A DNA stretch of 64,000 bases. It comes from Spiribacter vilamensis. Its GTDB lineage: Bacteria > Pseudomonadota > Gammaproteobacteria > Nitrococcales > Nitrococcaceae. The DNA lies in contig NZ_SHLI01000001.1 in the NCBI RefSeq assembly GCF_004217415.1, forward strand, positions 1,488,001-1,552,000, read 5' to 3'. The notes under the pieces are model-generated. The model searched no databases and was not told the origin of the DNA. It saw nothing but the letters and a program-made list of their open reading frames with translations. The position numbers and the translations under genes were made by a program. Numbering within the stretch: position 1 is the first letter of the stretch; each line of letters begins with the position of its first letter. Of this stretch, positions 3,007 through 21,807 are shown one piece after another.

Positions 3007-3695
3007 CGCCGGCACGGCTGATCGACGCGACACCGGTCACCGACGACTGGTGGCTCATCCGCATCGAGTGGACGGCCGAATCGCCGGCGCCGGGTCAGTG
3101 GCTGTGGCTGGACCTGAATGGCCAGCGCTGCTGCCTGCCGGTCCGCGATGCCGATACCGGCGAGGGCTGGCTGGCGGGGATCCTCCCCGGCGCCCAACTG
3201 CCAGCGGGGATACGGCCGGGCACGCCGGTCGCCGTGTCATCCCTGCAGGGTCGGCCGATCCAGACCAATGCCAATGACCGGTTACTGATCCTGGGCGAGG
3301 ATCTCGGTGTCGGTCCGGCCATTGCACTGGCAGAACGCCATCCCGATCAAACGCGACTGGTACTGCTCGGCGGGGAGCATGGCCTCCCCGGTCGTTTGGT
3401 CCCGTCCCGGTTTTTCATCCCGGCGCTGGCCGATGTCGCTATTGCCGGTCTCGCGTCACTCGAGCAGGCTGGCGTACCGGCCCGGGTGGCCCTTAATGAC
3501 GACCGCCCCGGCGTCCACGAGGGCGGCGTGCTCAATCTGCTGGGGCGCTACCTGAGCGACACCCCCGAGGAGACCCGGCAGACGCTGCGGCTCATCGCCT
3601 TCGGGCCGTGGCACAGCCTGCATCCGTTTCGGAACGGCGTTGCGGCGACCGTTAACAGCGTCGAATGGGTGGAGTTACCGGCAAAGCCGGCATAG
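3003..3695 (+). CDS. Ferredoxin-reductase-like (PyrK-like) protein of the pyr operon
   Basis: The 230-residue protein starts ATGA-coupled to pyrC'. It shows an N-terminal beta-barrel-like part (SPAPGQWLWLDLNGQ, residues about 22-36) and a nucleotide-binding-like LLILGEDLGVGPAIALAE segment, the order found in PyrK and other ferredoxin-NADP reductase relatives. The cysteines that hold the PyrK 2Fe-2S cluster are absent from the C-terminus, and no clear RxYS flavin motif is visible, so redox activity is doubtful. The position suggests a role in pyrimidine synthesis, but this is inference. A palindromic repeat starts 9 bp after the stop. Confidence 0.6.
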   Translation: MTPARLIDATPVTDDWWLIRIEWTAESPAPGQWLWLDLNGQRCCLPVRDADTGEGWLAGILPGAQLPAGIRPGTPVAVSSLQGRPIQTNANDRLLILGEDLGVGPAIALAERHPDQTRLVLLGGEHGLPGRLVPSRFFIPALADVAIAGLASLEQAGVPARVALNDDRPGVHEGGVLNLLGRYLSDTPEETRQTLRLIAFGPWHSLHPFRNGVAATVNSVEWVELPAKPA

Positions 3696-3703
3696 CGCGG
3701 AGT

Positions 3704-3807
3704 TTTTCGGTGTCTTTTCCCGGGCTCATGAGAGACGCGGGGCGTTTCAGGCGGTGGATATCATTCTTAACGGCGTCTCAAAATCGCCCGGGAAAAGACA
3801 CCGAAAA
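3704..3807 (+). repeat. Palindromic repeat, copy 1 (conserved core, private arms)
   Basis: The arms at 3704-3725 and 3786-3807 are perfect 22-bp inverted repeats. They enclose a 60-nt core (3726-3785) that has its own inner stem, gagacgc (3732-3738) with gcgtctc (3773-3779), and the sequence GCGGTGGATATCATT. The core differs from copy 2 (5103-5208, opposite orientation) at only 3 of 60 positions, while the outer arms are quite different in sequence. The element lies just after the pyr operon, and no T-tract follows it, so it is not a classical terminator. Confidence 0.85.
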
Positions 3808-3828
3808 CCCTTTGGCCTGGGACCTTGC

Positions 3829-4044
3829 TCATACAGCTACTTCCGTAATCTCGGAATCTGGCCCATATGTCGCGTCGTCTTCGACGGTCTCCAAGTACAG
3901 TTCGACGGACTCCCTGATATTTTTTAGAGCCTCATCTTTGTTTTCGCCTTCGCTAATGCATCCTGTCAGGCTGGGCACGTAAGCGGTGTACCCACCTTCC
4001 TCACTGGGCTCGGGAACAACTGCTAATTTCATATCAAACTCCAT
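3829..4044 (-). CDS. HicB-family antitoxin-like protein, without HicA
   Basis: The 71-residue protein has the HicB/UPF0150 pattern: a beta strand (KLAVVPEP), then GGYTAYVPSLTGC and EALKNIRESVELYLE. HicB proteins normally neutralise the HicA mRNA interferase. No hicA-like frame is found on either side: upstream is an attC-like site and a ParE remnant, downstream is repeat copy 1. An alternative start is the Met at 4032, which would remove four residues. It is therefore an orphan antitoxin, possibly a single-gene cassette whose own attC has been lost. The call rests on motif shape only. Confidence 0.75.
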   Translation of the reverse strand: MEFDMKLAVVPEPSEEGGYTAYVPSLTGCISEGENKDEALKNIRESVELYLETVEDDATYGPDSEITEVAV

Positions 4045-4063
4045 AATTCTCTAGTCTCAAAGA

Positions 4064-4141
4064 CTCTAACGCCCGACTCACGCGCCGGTCTGGATCCGCT
4101 AAGCAGCGGAAACTCGGTCGCTGTGCAGCCGATTGTTAAAG
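4064..4141 (-). other. attC-like integron recombination site
   Basis: Read on the minus strand, the 78-bp site opens with CTTTAAC (plus 4141-4135), fitting the R'' box RYYYAAC. It closes with GTTAGAG (plus 4070-4064), fitting GTTRRRY except for the last base. Between them lie imperfect complementary L-box regions and a central TCCGCTgcttAGCGGA hairpin, as in the variable loop of attC. The stop codon of the ParE remnant falls inside the R'' box, which is common for cassette genes. Folding and a covariance-model search were not run. Confidence 0.65.
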
Positions 4142-4300
4142 CCTGCCTAGCCAGTACTGCGGACGCCGCCGGTCATGGGCAATGGCCAGAATCTCAAATT
4201 CCTCTATAAGGGCACCACCTAATCCCGGAACTTTTGATTCGTAATAACCAACTGACTCCAGGAACTCGACTTCCGCCGCCGGGTGGAAAGAATAATTCAT
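4136..4300 (-). pseudogene. ParE/RelE-family toxin with internal in-frame deletion
   Basis: The 54-residue frame starts ATGA-coupled to the antitoxin upstream. Its N-terminus (MNYSFHPAAEVEFLESVGYY, residues 1-20) and its C-terminus (ILAIAHDRRRPQYW, residues 37-50) are both typical of ParE toxins. In the family these two parts are separated by roughly 40 residues carrying the central beta strands and basic catalytic or binding residues. Here they are joined directly after EEFE, so the middle is missing without loss of frame. The product is unlikely to be toxic. The stop lies in the adjacent attC-like site. Confidence 0.75.
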
Positions 4301-4521
4301 TTGATCAGTGCTTTAGCCTTCCTCATAACATCTTCACCAGACACAGCCTGAACTGTTCCGTTGTCGATCTCTTCGCCTCTGCGTTGAGCCTCCAGCAACC
4401 AATCGGATTTGAGCTCGTCGTCTGACGGAGACTCCAGACTCAACACCAGTCGCTGGATCAATTGGGCCCGTTCCTTTTTAGGAAGGTGGAGCGCCTCATC
4501 TTCGATTTTCTGGAGATTCAT
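4297..4521 (-). CDS. Addiction-module antitoxin (TIGR02574-like)
   Basis: The 74-residue protein matches the small antitoxin family whose members read like IEDEALHLPKKERAQLIQRL at the N-terminus, followed by LSLESPSDDELKSDW and an EEIDNG segment. These proteins pair with ParE-type toxins. It overlaps the shortened parE downstream by ATGA, confirming operon order antitoxin then toxin. With its partner apparently disabled, the antitoxin may persist as an anti-addiction gene or simply be decaying. Together with parE and the attC-like sites at 4064-4141 and about 4675-4734 it would make one cassette of about 0.6 kb. Confidence 0.8.
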   Translation of the reverse strand: MNLQKIEDEALHLPKKERAQLIQRLVLSLESPSDDELKSDWLLEAQRRGEEIDNGTVQAVSGEDVMRKAKALIK

Positions 4522-4674
4522 GGGAAACCTCTCGTAAACGTATTATTGAATTTTGACACAGATGGGTACTAGGGGTACCGAATATGCGGTATGAGCGGCC
4601 ACATCGCCTGCTCAGAACATCTCCAATTCAGCTGAGTAGAAACGTTTCCTCAAGCGATTTCCACCAGCATGTAC

Positions 4675-4734
4675 GGCTAACTGGCCGCTTATGCAGATGT
4701 TGAAGTAAAAGCGCCGCATAAACCGGTGCTCCAG
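4675..4734 (-). other. Possible degenerate attC-like site
   Basis: On the minus strand this 60-bp stretch ends in GTTAGCC and contains complementary blocks CCGGTTTATGC and GCATAAGCGGCCA around a short loop, the shape of an attC site. The expected R'' box at the other end reads CTGGAGC and does not fit RYYYAAC. It lies upstream of the antitoxin, exactly where the preceding cassette's attC would sit. It is called only as a candidate. Confidence 0.35.
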
Positions 4735-4774
4735 CCATTTAAGATTGGCGGTACATCAATGCTCTCTCGCTACA

Positions 4775-4885
4775 TCATGTGCCTATCACGACGAGCCGCT
4801 CATCTTGAATCTCGCAGATCACCCGATAGGCGCCCACCCGGTAGCGCCATAGACCGGTGAGCGAGCCACGCAAGGGAGCGCGCAT
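4775..4885 (-). pseudogene. RelE-family toxin fragment
   Basis: A 36-residue frame contains [20 protein letters not shown] followed by [10 protein letters not shown], the diagnostic central part of RelE toxins (PL.G.l.[14 protein letters not shown].i.d..lvv). The N-terminal 45 or so residues are missing, and the C-terminal IGHRREVY ending is replaced by IGT and a stop. It follows a truncated RelB-like antitoxin, so the pair is a decayed relBE-type module. No function is expected. Confidence 0.7.
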
Positions 4886-4887
4886 AC

Positions 4888-5007
4888 TCAACTGTCCACG
4901 CCACGCCAGAACTCCGCCGCACTCACGACCTCCTCGTCACCGCGACGCACCCGTTCAAGTGTTTGTTCGGCCAAGTAGATATCCTCGGTGTGTCCGGTGA
5001 CATACAT
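4888..5007 (-). pseudogene. RelB/RHH-type antitoxin fragment
   Basis: A 39-residue frame contains [20 protein letters not shown] and ends EFWRGVDS, matching the C-terminal toxin-binding half of ribbon-helix-helix RelB-like (DUF6290-type) antitoxins. The DNA-binding N-terminal half is absent: upstream sequence does not continue the family pattern. It lies directly before the RelE fragment (2 bp between the antitoxin stop and the Met of the fragment), in the normal antitoxin-toxin order. Both genes of the pair are broken. Confidence 0.6.
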
Positions 5008-5102
5008 GTATAGCGTATGTAGTGGGTCGTTGGAAAACTTAGGAGGGATGCCTCACAAGGCCAGTCGTAGACCCCACGCTCACCACCCGTGACCTTCCAC
5101 GT

Positions 5103-5208
5103 CTTTCCGGGGTGTTTCACCGGGCGATTTTGAGACGCCGTGAAGAATGATATCCACCGCCCGAAACGCTCCGCGTCTCTCATGAGCCCGGTGGAACACC
5201 CCGGAAAG
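5103..5208 (-). repeat. Palindromic repeat, copy 2 (inverted relative to copy 1)
   Basis: The arms at 5103-5125 and 5186-5208 are 23-bp inverted repeats with a single G-T type mismatch. The 60-nt core between them (5126-5185) read on the minus strand matches copy 1 at 57 of 60 positions. The arms share little with those of copy 1 beyond the innermost CGGGC, yet still pair with each other. The element lies 58 bp upstream of yggS and closes the toxin-antitoxin patch. Confidence 0.85.
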
Positions 5209-5266
5209 CCCCCGGACCACGAACCGGTATTCGACGCCATGACACCTCCCGCCGTATTATTTCGCC

Positions 5267-5977
5267 ATGACAACGACCGATGAAAACGACATCGCTACAC
5301 GCCTGGCTGCCGTGCGCCAGCGGATCCGCGACGCGGAGCTGACCTACGGCCGCGAGCCGGGCAGTGTGGCGCTGCTTGCGGTGAGCAAACGCCAGCCCGT
5401 CTCGGCGCTGCGAACGGCGCTCGCCGAGGGGCAGCACGCCTTTGGCGAGAACTACCTCCAGGAGGGCGCGGACAAGCGCGAGGCCCTCGCTGCCGAGGCC
5501 ATCGAGTGGCATTTCGTGGGCGCCATTCAGTCCAACAAGACCCGGGCGGTGGCCGAGGGATTCGACTGGGTGCATACGGTCGATCGGCTCAAGATCGCGC
5601 GACGGCTGTCGGAACAGCGCCCCGAGGGTCTGCCACCGCTGCAGTGCTGTCTGCAGGTCAACGTCAGCGGCGAGGCGAGCAAATCCGGCGCCGAGCCGGC
5701 GGCGGTGCGGGAACTGGCGCATGCCATTGCCGCCCTCCCCAACATCCGCCTGCGCGGCCTGATGACGCTGCCCGAGGCGGTCAGCGAGTTTGACGCCCAG
5801 CGCGCCGCGTTCCGCCGGCTGCGCGAGCAGCAGGCCGAGCTCATCGACGACGGACTGGCACTCGATACCCTGTCCATGGGCATGTCCAACGATCTGGAAG
5901 CGGCGGTGGCCGAGGGGGCGACAATGGTTCGCCTCGGTACCGCCGTTTTCGGACCCCGACCGGAGAAACAGCCTTGA
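5267..5977 (+). CDS. yggS: PLP homeostasis protein, YggS/PROSC family
   Basis: The 236-residue protein has a single alanine-racemase-like TIM barrel that binds pyridoxal phosphate. The PLP lysine lies in LLAVSKRQPV at about residues 36-45, and HFVGAIQSNKTR and LSMGMSNDLEAAV are family signatures. YggS proteins buffer PLP and influence amino-acid pools rather than catalyse a known reaction. The ATG at 5267 was chosen because it precedes the first conserved residues and follows the repeat. The gene overlaps proC (TTGA), and yggS-proC-yggT is a widespread operon. Confidence 0.95.
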   Translation: MTTTDENDIATRLAAVRQRIRDAELTYGREPGSVALLAVSKRQPVSALRTALAEGQHAFGENYLQEGADKREALAAEAIEWHFVGAIQSNKTRAVAEGFDWVHTVDRLKIARRLSEQRPEGLPPLQCCLQVNVSGEASKSGAEPAAVRELAHAIAALPNIRLRGLMTLPEAVSEFDAQRAAFRRLREQQAELIDDGLALDTLSMGMSNDLEAAVAEGATMVRLGTAVFGPRPEKQP

Positions 5978-20605: not shown

Positions 20606-20624
20606 CGCCACCCGAGGGTAGTCT

Positions 20625-20736
20625 GCCGCCTTTGGTCCTTCCTCCCGGGCTCACACGAGATGCGAAGCCTGTCAGGCAGTGGATATCACTTTGATCGGCA
20701 TCTCGAGATCGCCCGGGAGGAAGGACCAAAGGCGGC
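20625..20736 (+). repeat. Palindromic repeat, copy 3
   Basis: Perfect 26-bp inverted arms (20625-20650 and 20711-20736) enclose a 60-nt core (20651-20710) with the family features: inner stem cgagatgc with gcatctcg, a GCCTgtcAGGC mini-hairpin and the GTGGATATCAC near-palindrome. The arm sequence is unlike that of copies 1 and 2. It lies between the convergent usp and cyoE genes, where it could also terminate transcription in both directions, although no T-run follows. Confidence 0.85.
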
Positions 20737-20748
20737 ATGCCATGGGGT

Positions 20749-20839
20749 GTCGACGAGATACGGAGCCCGTCAGGCGGTGGATATCATTTTGATCGGCATC
20801 TCGTGTGAGCCCGGGAGAAGGGGCAAAAGGCGGCATGCC
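20749..20839 (+). repeat. Palindromic repeat, copy 4 (tandem, left arm incomplete)
   Basis: The core at 20749-20808 aligns without gaps to copy 3, including TCAGGCGGTGGATATCATTT and the inner stem cgagat with atctcg. The right arm continues from 20809 as gcccgggagaaggggc and ends in ggcggcatgcc, a word also found at the right end of copy 3. The left arm lacks the central part. The right arm of copy 4 is nearly complementary to the left arm of copy 3, so the two may fold together. Confidence 0.75.
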
Positions 20840-20853
20840 CCCCCTCCGGGGAG

Positions 20854-21807
20854 TTATCCAGCCAGTAGTCCCCAGACCACCGGTAGGTAGGCGTCGACCA
20901 GCAGGACCGCGAACAGCGCCATCAGGTAGACGATACTAAAGCCGAATGATCGCATTGGCAGCGATTGATCGTCGGGTCGGGCGAGTAGTGCATAGCCGAA
21001 CCAGAGGTAGCGCCCGCCCAGTATCAGCGCGCCGGCGAGGTAAACCGGCCCGCTCATGCCGGTGGCGAACGGCAGCAGTGTGACGCCCACCAGCATCACG
21101 GTGTAGAAGAGGATCTGCCAGCGGGTGAAACGGTCACCATGAGTCACTGGCAGCATCGGGATATCGACGCTTGCATATTCCTCGCGGCGATGGATCGCCA
21201 GCGCCCAGAAATGCGGCGGGGTCCAGGTAAAGATGATCAGGAACAACAGCAGGGCATGGGGATCGATGCTGCCGGTCACCGCCACCCAGCCCAGTACCGG
21301 GGGAGCAGCCCCGGCGGCGCCGCCGATCACAATGTTCTGGGGGGTCGCCCGTTTGAGGAACAGCGTGTAGATGAACGCATAGCCGATCAACGAACCAAAC
21401 GTTAGCCAGGCCGTGAGCGGATTGACCAGAAAGTACAGTAGCGACAGGCCGGCAAGTCCGAGTACACCGGCGAACAGGCTGGCATGGCTCGTGCGCAGGC
21501 CGCCGGTGGGGAGCGGACGTCCCCGGGTACGCTTCATTCGTGCATCGATCCGGCGGTCGACGAGATGATTGATCGCGGCGGCGGAGCCGGCCGCCAGGGC
21601 AATGCCGATGTTACCGACCGTCAACGCCATCCAGGGGATCGCACCGGGGCTCGCCAGCAGCTCGCCAACCACCGCCGTAAACACCATCAGGGCAACAACG
21701 CCGGGCTTGGTCAGCTCGTAGTAGTCATGCCAGCGTTGCAGCGTGTGCTGCGCCAGTGCGGCAACGCCCGAGGACGGATTGGTTGTGGCGTCTAGAATTC
21801 GGCTCAT
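20854..21807 (-). CDS. cyoE: Protoheme IX farnesyltransferase (heme O synthase)
   Basis: The 317-residue UbiA-superfamily membrane prenyltransferase farnesylates heme B to heme O. The prenyl-binding motif [21 protein letters not shown] is at about residues 79-99, followed by the [14 protein letters not shown]-type loop seen as [15 protein letters not shown]. About eight to nine hydrophobic helices are visible. It is ATGA-coupled to the cox15 gene upstream, so heme O and heme A synthesis are made together. The gene would be called ctaB in oxidase-centred nomenclature. Confidence 0.96.

Follow-up and report, generated by a model that had tools for sequence, protein, structure and literature searches.

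The closest described counterparts of the element reported here are the REP and BIME repeats. According to the sections of PMC8266576 and PMC3733652 used here, these repeats are extragenic, lie mostly downstream of genes and occur as inverted pairs with a linker; in E. coli their stems carry a conserved mismatch, and the folded form is recognised in a strand-specific manner. The REP palindrome is 20–50 nt long. The CGTC-tagged REPs, as covered by the same part of PMC3733652, are palindromes found mostly as head-to-head dimers without a dedicated transposase, with stems of 8–9 bp and the CGTC tag at one end. REPINs have two inverted parts and form a hairpin with common compensatory changes; their ends are conserved and their spacer is free, and the excerpts of PMC3116915 at hand mention no strand asymmetry of mismatches. 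Other stem-loop families are the subject of PMC2267715 and PMC1590033. Descriptions of palindromic repeats usually rest on sequence, and it is seldom evident whether folding of the DNA or of the RNA keeps them. Folding MITEs (ERIC, NEMIS and Correia) are small, dispersed, capable of folding in RNA and defined by shared terminal repeats, while the base motif of an integron attC hairpin is the AAC/GTT core site.

Comparing genomes of the genus Spiribacter, we found a family of paired hairpins with covarying arms and mismatches that are asymmetric between the strands, occupying sites that are empty in other species and flipped, as a unit, at the same locus. The stretch of DNA analysed (the window) comprises 64,000 nt of the Spiribacter vilamensis genome (G000:C1:1488001-1552000, where G000 is this genome; G001 and so on are other genomes of the genus, and L numbers are loci). 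It contains the following features.

3704..3807, minus strand: hairpin 1 (unit member A), with the core word GTGGATATCA on the plus strand and the minus strand as the putative foldable strand
3725..3786, minus strand: conserved 62-nt core of hairpin 1, whose edges are a 3x3 internal loop
3829..4044, minus strand: HicB-like antitoxin gene between hairpins 1 and 2 (Pfam PF15919, E 3.8e-9)
4136..4300, minus strand: 54-aa ORF beside the antitoxin gene, with no Pfam match, resembling a short ParE/RelE-type toxin by eye only
4297..4521, minus strand: antitoxin-like gene, a putative addiction module component (Pfam PF09720, E 1.1e-14)
4775..4891, minus strand: ParE toxin fragment (Pfam PF05016, E 1.3e-5), covering only profile positions 43–79 of 89
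5103..5208, plus strand: hairpin 2 (unit member B), opposite in orientation to hairpin 1, with the plus strand as the putative foldable strand
5267..5977, plus strand: gene beside hairpin 2, presumably yggS-like, whose upstream gap is occupied or empty among relatives
20624..20737, minus strand: hairpin 3, full, with arm pairing 24/24 and the minus strand as the putative foldable strand
about 20755..20840, no strand assigned: copy 4, a partial, rearranged unit with the inner core in plus orientation and a right arm of the opposite type, without a matching left arm
20854..21807, minus strand: gene beside copy 4, which we take to be ctaB-like; in G002 C18 and G009 C7, too, there are hairpins beyond the 3' end of its match

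By analogy, the Spiribacter element appears nearest to the REP/BIME repeats among known kinds. Its pairs are likewise inverted, linker-separated and extragenic, and the apparent selection for a single strand per hairpin recalls the strand-specific recognition of the folded REP. However, the Spiribacter hairpins are about 80–110 nt long, have no invariant GTAG or CGTC foot in alignments inspected by eye, and are present in few copies per genome. The opposed pairs recall the CGTC-tagged REPs, whose stems are short and tagged at one end; the outer stem here measures about 20 bp or more, and conservation is found in an internal loop. REPINs resemble the element in their two inverted parts and compensatory changes, but here the internal loop is the fixed part and the outer stem varies. 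Folding MITEs are also small and dispersed, but here the arms vary between copies. An integron attC site was rejected by eye, as no invariant AAC/GTT was seen at the hairpin base. We met no description of this hairpin family in a literature search that covered few subscription papers.

The earlier note on this DNA had proposed looking for a RAYT gene. No match to the RAYT family (TnpAREP, PF01797, E ≤ 0.001) was obtained in nine of the 11 genomes that carry the element, S. vilamensis included, which also sets the family apart from REP/BIME repeats, and RAYT was rejected as the mobiliser on this ground. Among the 14 genus genomes, PF01797 matches occur in three: G002 (below the cut-off), G004 and G005. 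The best of them is in G004, a genome without any hairpin hit. PF00589 members are present in all 14 genomes, and in a by-eye listing no tyrosine recombinase stood out as tracking with the elements. No transposase gene was noticed between hairpins in the loci that were read, and no clear target-site duplication was seen by eye between empty and filled sites.

Each of hairpins 1, 2 and 3 is one long imperfect hairpin. Folded as DNA, copies 1 and 2 (both strands) and copy 3 (plus strand) gave z values of −7.6 to −13.3 against shuffles, none of 200 shuffles folding as well in each of the five folds. Hairpin 1 is 104 nt long, and short-core forms elsewhere measure about 80 nt. The loop that bounds its core reads, on the minus strand, 5'-C GAT Y / R TGA G, with the oppositions G.A, A.G and T.T. 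Copies 1 and 2 are indeed present in opposite orientation, as the earlier note had stated; the core identity that it gave as 57 of 60 positions is 59 of 62 in our comparison, which is the same finding, and the arms of both copies pair with their own partners as it had claimed (Watson–Crick at 22 of the first 24 arm positions in each). Its description of the arms of these two copies as strongly different was overstated: they are not identical, but the left arms agree at 15 of 21 positions. Copies 3 and 4 had also been counted as members. This is right for copy 3 with its fully paired arms; copy 4 does not bear it out, for it has the core word but pairs its own arms at only 8 of 24 positions. 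The right arm of copy 4 is of the reverse-complement type of the copy 3 left arm (an inverted repeat of 61 nt, 77%), so that in copy 4 the inner core is reversed with respect to the one outer arm left, as an inversion of the loop via its own inner repeat would produce. An Rfam scan of the window gave no match at the gathering score; at hairpin 1 there is a sub-threshold SNORD90 match (26.9 bits, 41 required).

The family extends beyond these copies. The 2.08-Mb S. vilamensis genome has further copies at 188 kb and 1851 kb of the contig, and sister species have many more, so the element exists in more than the four places first described. A blastn search with hairpin 1 gave matches in five of 59 genomes, that is, the genome itself and four of 58 relatives, all of the same genus. 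Covariance model R1, built from 16 copies on the strand used in the earlier note (the GTGGATATCA frame; E ≤ 0.01), matched 11 of the 14 genus genomes, S. vilamensis included, and none of nine other genomes of the family. Model R2, built from 33 copies on the opposite strand, matched 10 of the 14 genus genomes and, under the stricter filters of the order-wide search, none of 40 other genomes of the order. In a class sample of 274 genomes R2 matched S. vilamensis alone, a weak result with at most 13 candidates per genome scored among the matches listed. G004, G007 (74% complete) and G011 gave no match with either R1 or R2, and phage and plasmid collections gave none at E 0.01. One viral-contig match lies within apparent coding sequence, has no hairpin arms and was judged to be chance. 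A loose core pattern search was likewise discarded as mostly chance; it allowed gaps of up to 50, too few to span the main core, and a backwards control gave a similar number. Judging from these searches, the hairpin family is so far restricted to the genus Spiribacter. Several draft contigs (G009 C7, C11, C20 and C25) and locus L025 start or stop inside or near an element, and copy numbers in those drafts are therefore likely to be too low.

We collected hairpins by a motif scan of 27 loci, which gave 49 hits; five were judged to be chance in apparent coding sequence, and two hairpins at G009 contig ends were added, leaving 46. The collection required at least 14 of 24 arm positions to be Watson–Crick, a filter that is blind to the difference between A.C and G.T and that places partial copies such as copy 4 outside the paired percentage; several model matches (for example, G005:C1:12127 and G002:C52:5518) are missing from the 46. 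Core lengths are 62 nt (25 hairpins), 61 (3), 60 (5), 59 (3), 32 (1), 29 (6) and 28 (3). The usual unit consists of two opposed hairpins whose starts are 140–141 bp apart (G008, G010, G001 and G012), or 108 bp where a short-core hairpin comes first, with some 30 nt of linker between them as judged by eye. Wider pairs are found at 272 bp in G008 (1887 kb), at 344 and 492 bp in G000 and at about 1.4 kb in the window, and single hairpins also exist. In the window, hairpins 1 and 2 are split by about 1.3 kb of seemingly decayed toxin–antitoxin genes, small antitoxin-like genes being clustered with a truncated toxin at 3829–5007.

The constant part of the hairpin is the internal loop, which in the GTGGATATCA frame reads CTC A/G Y ... 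R A/G TCG and on the complement 5'-C GAT Y ... R TGA G-3', with GAC/CGA in one subtype and a few hairpins off by one base. On that strand, tandem G.A/A.G and a T.T, replaced by C.C in one subtype, make up a 3x3 loop. Of the 46 hairpins, 21 have C.T at outer-stem position 21, which is A.G on the complement. The arm sequence is free to vary and pairing is retained. An alignment of 33 long-core hairpins (eight short-core and five other hairpins of the 46 excluded) bore out the proposal that the arms covary. On the complement, the strand that we call selected for the reasons given below, 94.8% of 1120 cells are paired and the covariation score is 0.608 against 0.191 in shuffles (0/500 as high); shifting the partners by 1–3 columns lowers pairing to 35–46%. 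On the other strand, 91.2% of the cells of the same 33 hairpins are paired and the score is 0.515 (0/500 shuffles as high), since the element is a palindrome and both strands exceed the shuffles. The selected strand has 69 further pair types (0/500 shuffles as high), whereas the 50 of the other strand are not above the shuffles (427/500 at least as high). Complementarity of the arms likewise persists in copies from further loci and species, although partial copies, copy 4 among them, exist.

We then compared the mismatches on the two strands. Two G009 contig-end hairpins that need a gap were set aside, leaving 44, among which 35 arm pairs are distinct. In the GTGGATATCA frame, the 700 cells of their 20-bp outer stems comprise 647 Watson–Crick pairs, 37 A.C, 1 G.T, 12 C.T and 3 others. 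By distinct context the ratio of A.C to G.T is 25:1 (one-sided sign test, 4e-7), and over all 46 hairpins without gaps it is 49:3; the sequences are related, so such counts are not numbers of independent events. Read on the complement, nearly all A.C mismatches become G.T in DNA or G.U in RNA. The asymmetry is present in both genome orientations (16:1 and 21:0), which argues against a simple bias of one genome strand, and in both types (CTCA 24:1, CTCG 12:0). Mismatches seen once within their own genome are also asymmetric (22 A.C to 1 G.T), as are those seen once among all 44 hairpins (7:1, the strictest private count and a small one). A minimum spanning tree has 19 edges of 12 differences or fewer, and on these the one-sided changes from Watson–Crick pairs lead, on the selected strand, to G.T/G.U in 21 cases, to A.C in 2, to A.G or G.A in 8 and to other states in 4, and one more change is between two non-standard states. 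A mutation bias would presumably need both C to T and A to G changes on the same strand of each hairpin. A retrieval bias, if any, would oppose the result, since R1 was built on the non-selected strand. The asymmetry suggests that selection acts on one folded strand of each hairpin, which seems to be the outward-reading one, and so the earlier idea of selection on a hairpin can be sharpened to one strand. The A.C to G.T ratio is a cheap test of whether, and on which strand, a hairpin is under selection, and it is applicable to any dispersed palindrome family.

Sites of the element are turned over between species. At the phaC locus, hairpin units are present in some species and absent from others. 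In G001, G012 and G013 a unit occupies the gap beside the inositol-monophosphatase gene. This gap is without a unit in G003, G004, G005, G006, G008, G010 and G011; in G002 it has a longer spacer without a hairpin, and G009 is not comparable. The gap beside the ABC permease gene of this locus holds a unit in G001, G012, G013, G008 and G010. Unit flips were found at one locus in each of two species pairs (loci L146 and L147; L137 and L142): between the same flanks, the units of G001 and G012 (231 bp, 97.8% identical) and those of G008 and G010 (266 bp, 89.1% identical) have opposite orientations. S. vilamensis has no close phaC (best 44%). Where relatives have this gene, between the ABC permease and inositol-monophosphatase genes, its genome has two opposed hairpins enclosing an HTH_37 antitoxin-like gene (G000:C1, about 1849000–1854000, at 1851 kb; L149), and the flanks of this pair look like the same neighbours as at the phaC locus of relatives. 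Upstream of the yggS-like gene, whose protein has its best relatives in an uncultured Spiribacter (86%) and, among named species, in Spiribacter salilacus (69%), there is no hairpin in L023, L026, L027, L028 and L029, a remnant in L024, a contig that starts inside a hairpin in L025 and a full unit in G008. Within 330 bases of the 3' end of the ctaB-like gene, no hairpin is found in G001, G004, G005, G010, G012 and G013, the plus-strand genomes that alone are informative. Copies at the same site in two species agree on average at 0.72 of the arms and 0.80 of the core (22 pairs), against 0.60 and 0.69 for copies at different sites (203 pairs). Within genome pairs, same- and different-site arms are close (G000/G008 0.41 vs 0.49; G008/G010 0.80 vs 0.74), in a comparison with few pairs and with G010_C10 typed A though it resembles the other type. 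Thus, old positions do not appear to be strongly remembered in the sequence, and either re-insertion or within-genome homogenisation would explain so little site memory.

The earlier note had suggested mapping the copies relative to gene ends. At the six sites where both neighbours were worked out (some of the neighbour gene names being our assumption), three are convergent, three co-directional and none divergent, and at all six at least one of the two neighbours has the element downstream of it. Where two hairpins are opposed, each has its selected strand reading outward, so that transcription from either side meets the hairpin of non-selected sense first and then that of selected sense. At the co-directional sites, one hairpin per pair is out of sense with the neighbours and shows no obvious decay by eye, with very few changes to judge from. 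It is odd that such units are kept, flipped and refilled in genomes whose median intergenic gap is 14–19 nt (two Spiribacter genomes, in the part of PMC3832224 used here).

We believe, with moderate confidence and from sequence comparison, that this is an interspersed element of REP/BIME-like kind confined to one genus, a pair of hairpins under selection on the outward strand that works as a structure-recognised folded single strand, most likely RNA. The outward-reading strand would form a 20-bp outer stem of free sequence closed by the conserved 3x3 loop, often with the extra A.G mismatch at position 21, and the hairpin would act as a folded single strand that is recognised by its structure. 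As RNA, it would belong to the 3' part of transcripts that enter the gap from one side or the other; for both directions of transcription, the later of the two hairpins is in the selected sense and may give 3'-end protection or processing. An enzyme acting in trans, or recombination between copies, could account for spread and flipping, and toxin–antitoxin genes would sometimes be caught between two hairpins. We favour RNA over single-stranded DNA because the rare and private mismatches show the asymmetry too, as would be expected if resident copies are under selection, and because each of the six sites is downstream of a gene on at least one side. The out-of-sense hairpins that persist at co-directional sites argue against a purely co-transcribed role of the RNA. 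G.T and G.A are the better tolerated mismatches in DNA hairpins as well, which leaves room for single-stranded DNA, the main rival. A recombinase or transposase that recognises structure would then act on the selected strand, as TnpAREP does on REP and the integron integrase on attC, with the hairpins as ends and the toxin–antitoxin genes as cargo, a tentative reading that we think rather unlikely. Inverted pairs, a conserved stem mismatch and strand specificity are what enzymes recognising single-stranded DNA use (PMC8266576, in the portion used here), and the unit flips at two loci, the absence from S. vilamensis of the phaC that relatives carry beside the elements, and the toxin–antitoxin type genes between hairpins at three places (the window, G000 at 1851 kb and G002 C52) fit it. 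However, the two hairpins of G002 C52, with an ORF pair between them that we take to be an antitoxin with a PIN toxin, have the same orientation and not opposite ones. The failure to find PF01797 in most carriers, its best match being in a hairpin-free genome, speaks against the reading too, as does the lack, by eye, of a tracking recombinase, an enclosed transposase or a clear target-site duplication, and neutrality after insertion would not give the 22:1 asymmetry of mismatches seen once per genome. In a related proposal that we consider unlikely, a cassette that moves or flips would be bounded by the two opposed single-strand hairpins, and the enzyme would read loop geometry, not sequence; the arms could then drift freely, and toxin–antitoxin genes would be picked up between the ends.

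The outward-strand RNA element has also to be set against two readings in which the hairpin does not move or is not selected. A bidirectional transcription terminator or mRNA 3'-end stabiliser with a host function only would sit well with the position at gene 3' ends, with an inverted pair that serves both directions and with the fact that several species have it at the same intergenic sites. An intrinsic terminator was rejected because inspection by eye of the sequences read revealed no T-run past the hairpin foot. That units are flipped and genes trapped suggests an element that moves or recombines, and we think this host-only reading quite doubtful. A promoter and terminator scan of 3600–5300 gave chance numbers and one terminator-like site, off the hairpins; it considered loops of 3–8 only and is blind to hairpins of this kind. 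The earlier note had also offered palindrome renewal, in which template switching corrects the quasi-palindrome, so that the arms stay complementary with no need of selection. Double changes that require transversions occur even between near-identical copies (four of seven double changes on the close edges), as such renewal would produce. Yet it predicts neither a strand preference nor preserved mismatches, whereas the observed ratio is 25:1, the 3x3 loop is conserved and C.T recurs at position 21. As the sole cause, template switching is thus unsupported and, in our judgement, very improbable; it may have contributed.

Two short sequences recur in parts of the family. An outer foot of the GTGCNGTGCCG type is found in several subfamilies and was not seen at window hairpins 1 and 2. 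The TTATCCAC loop, which is not kept in other subfamilies, is found on the selected strand of several G008 and G010 copies and is, we presume, close to a DnaA box.
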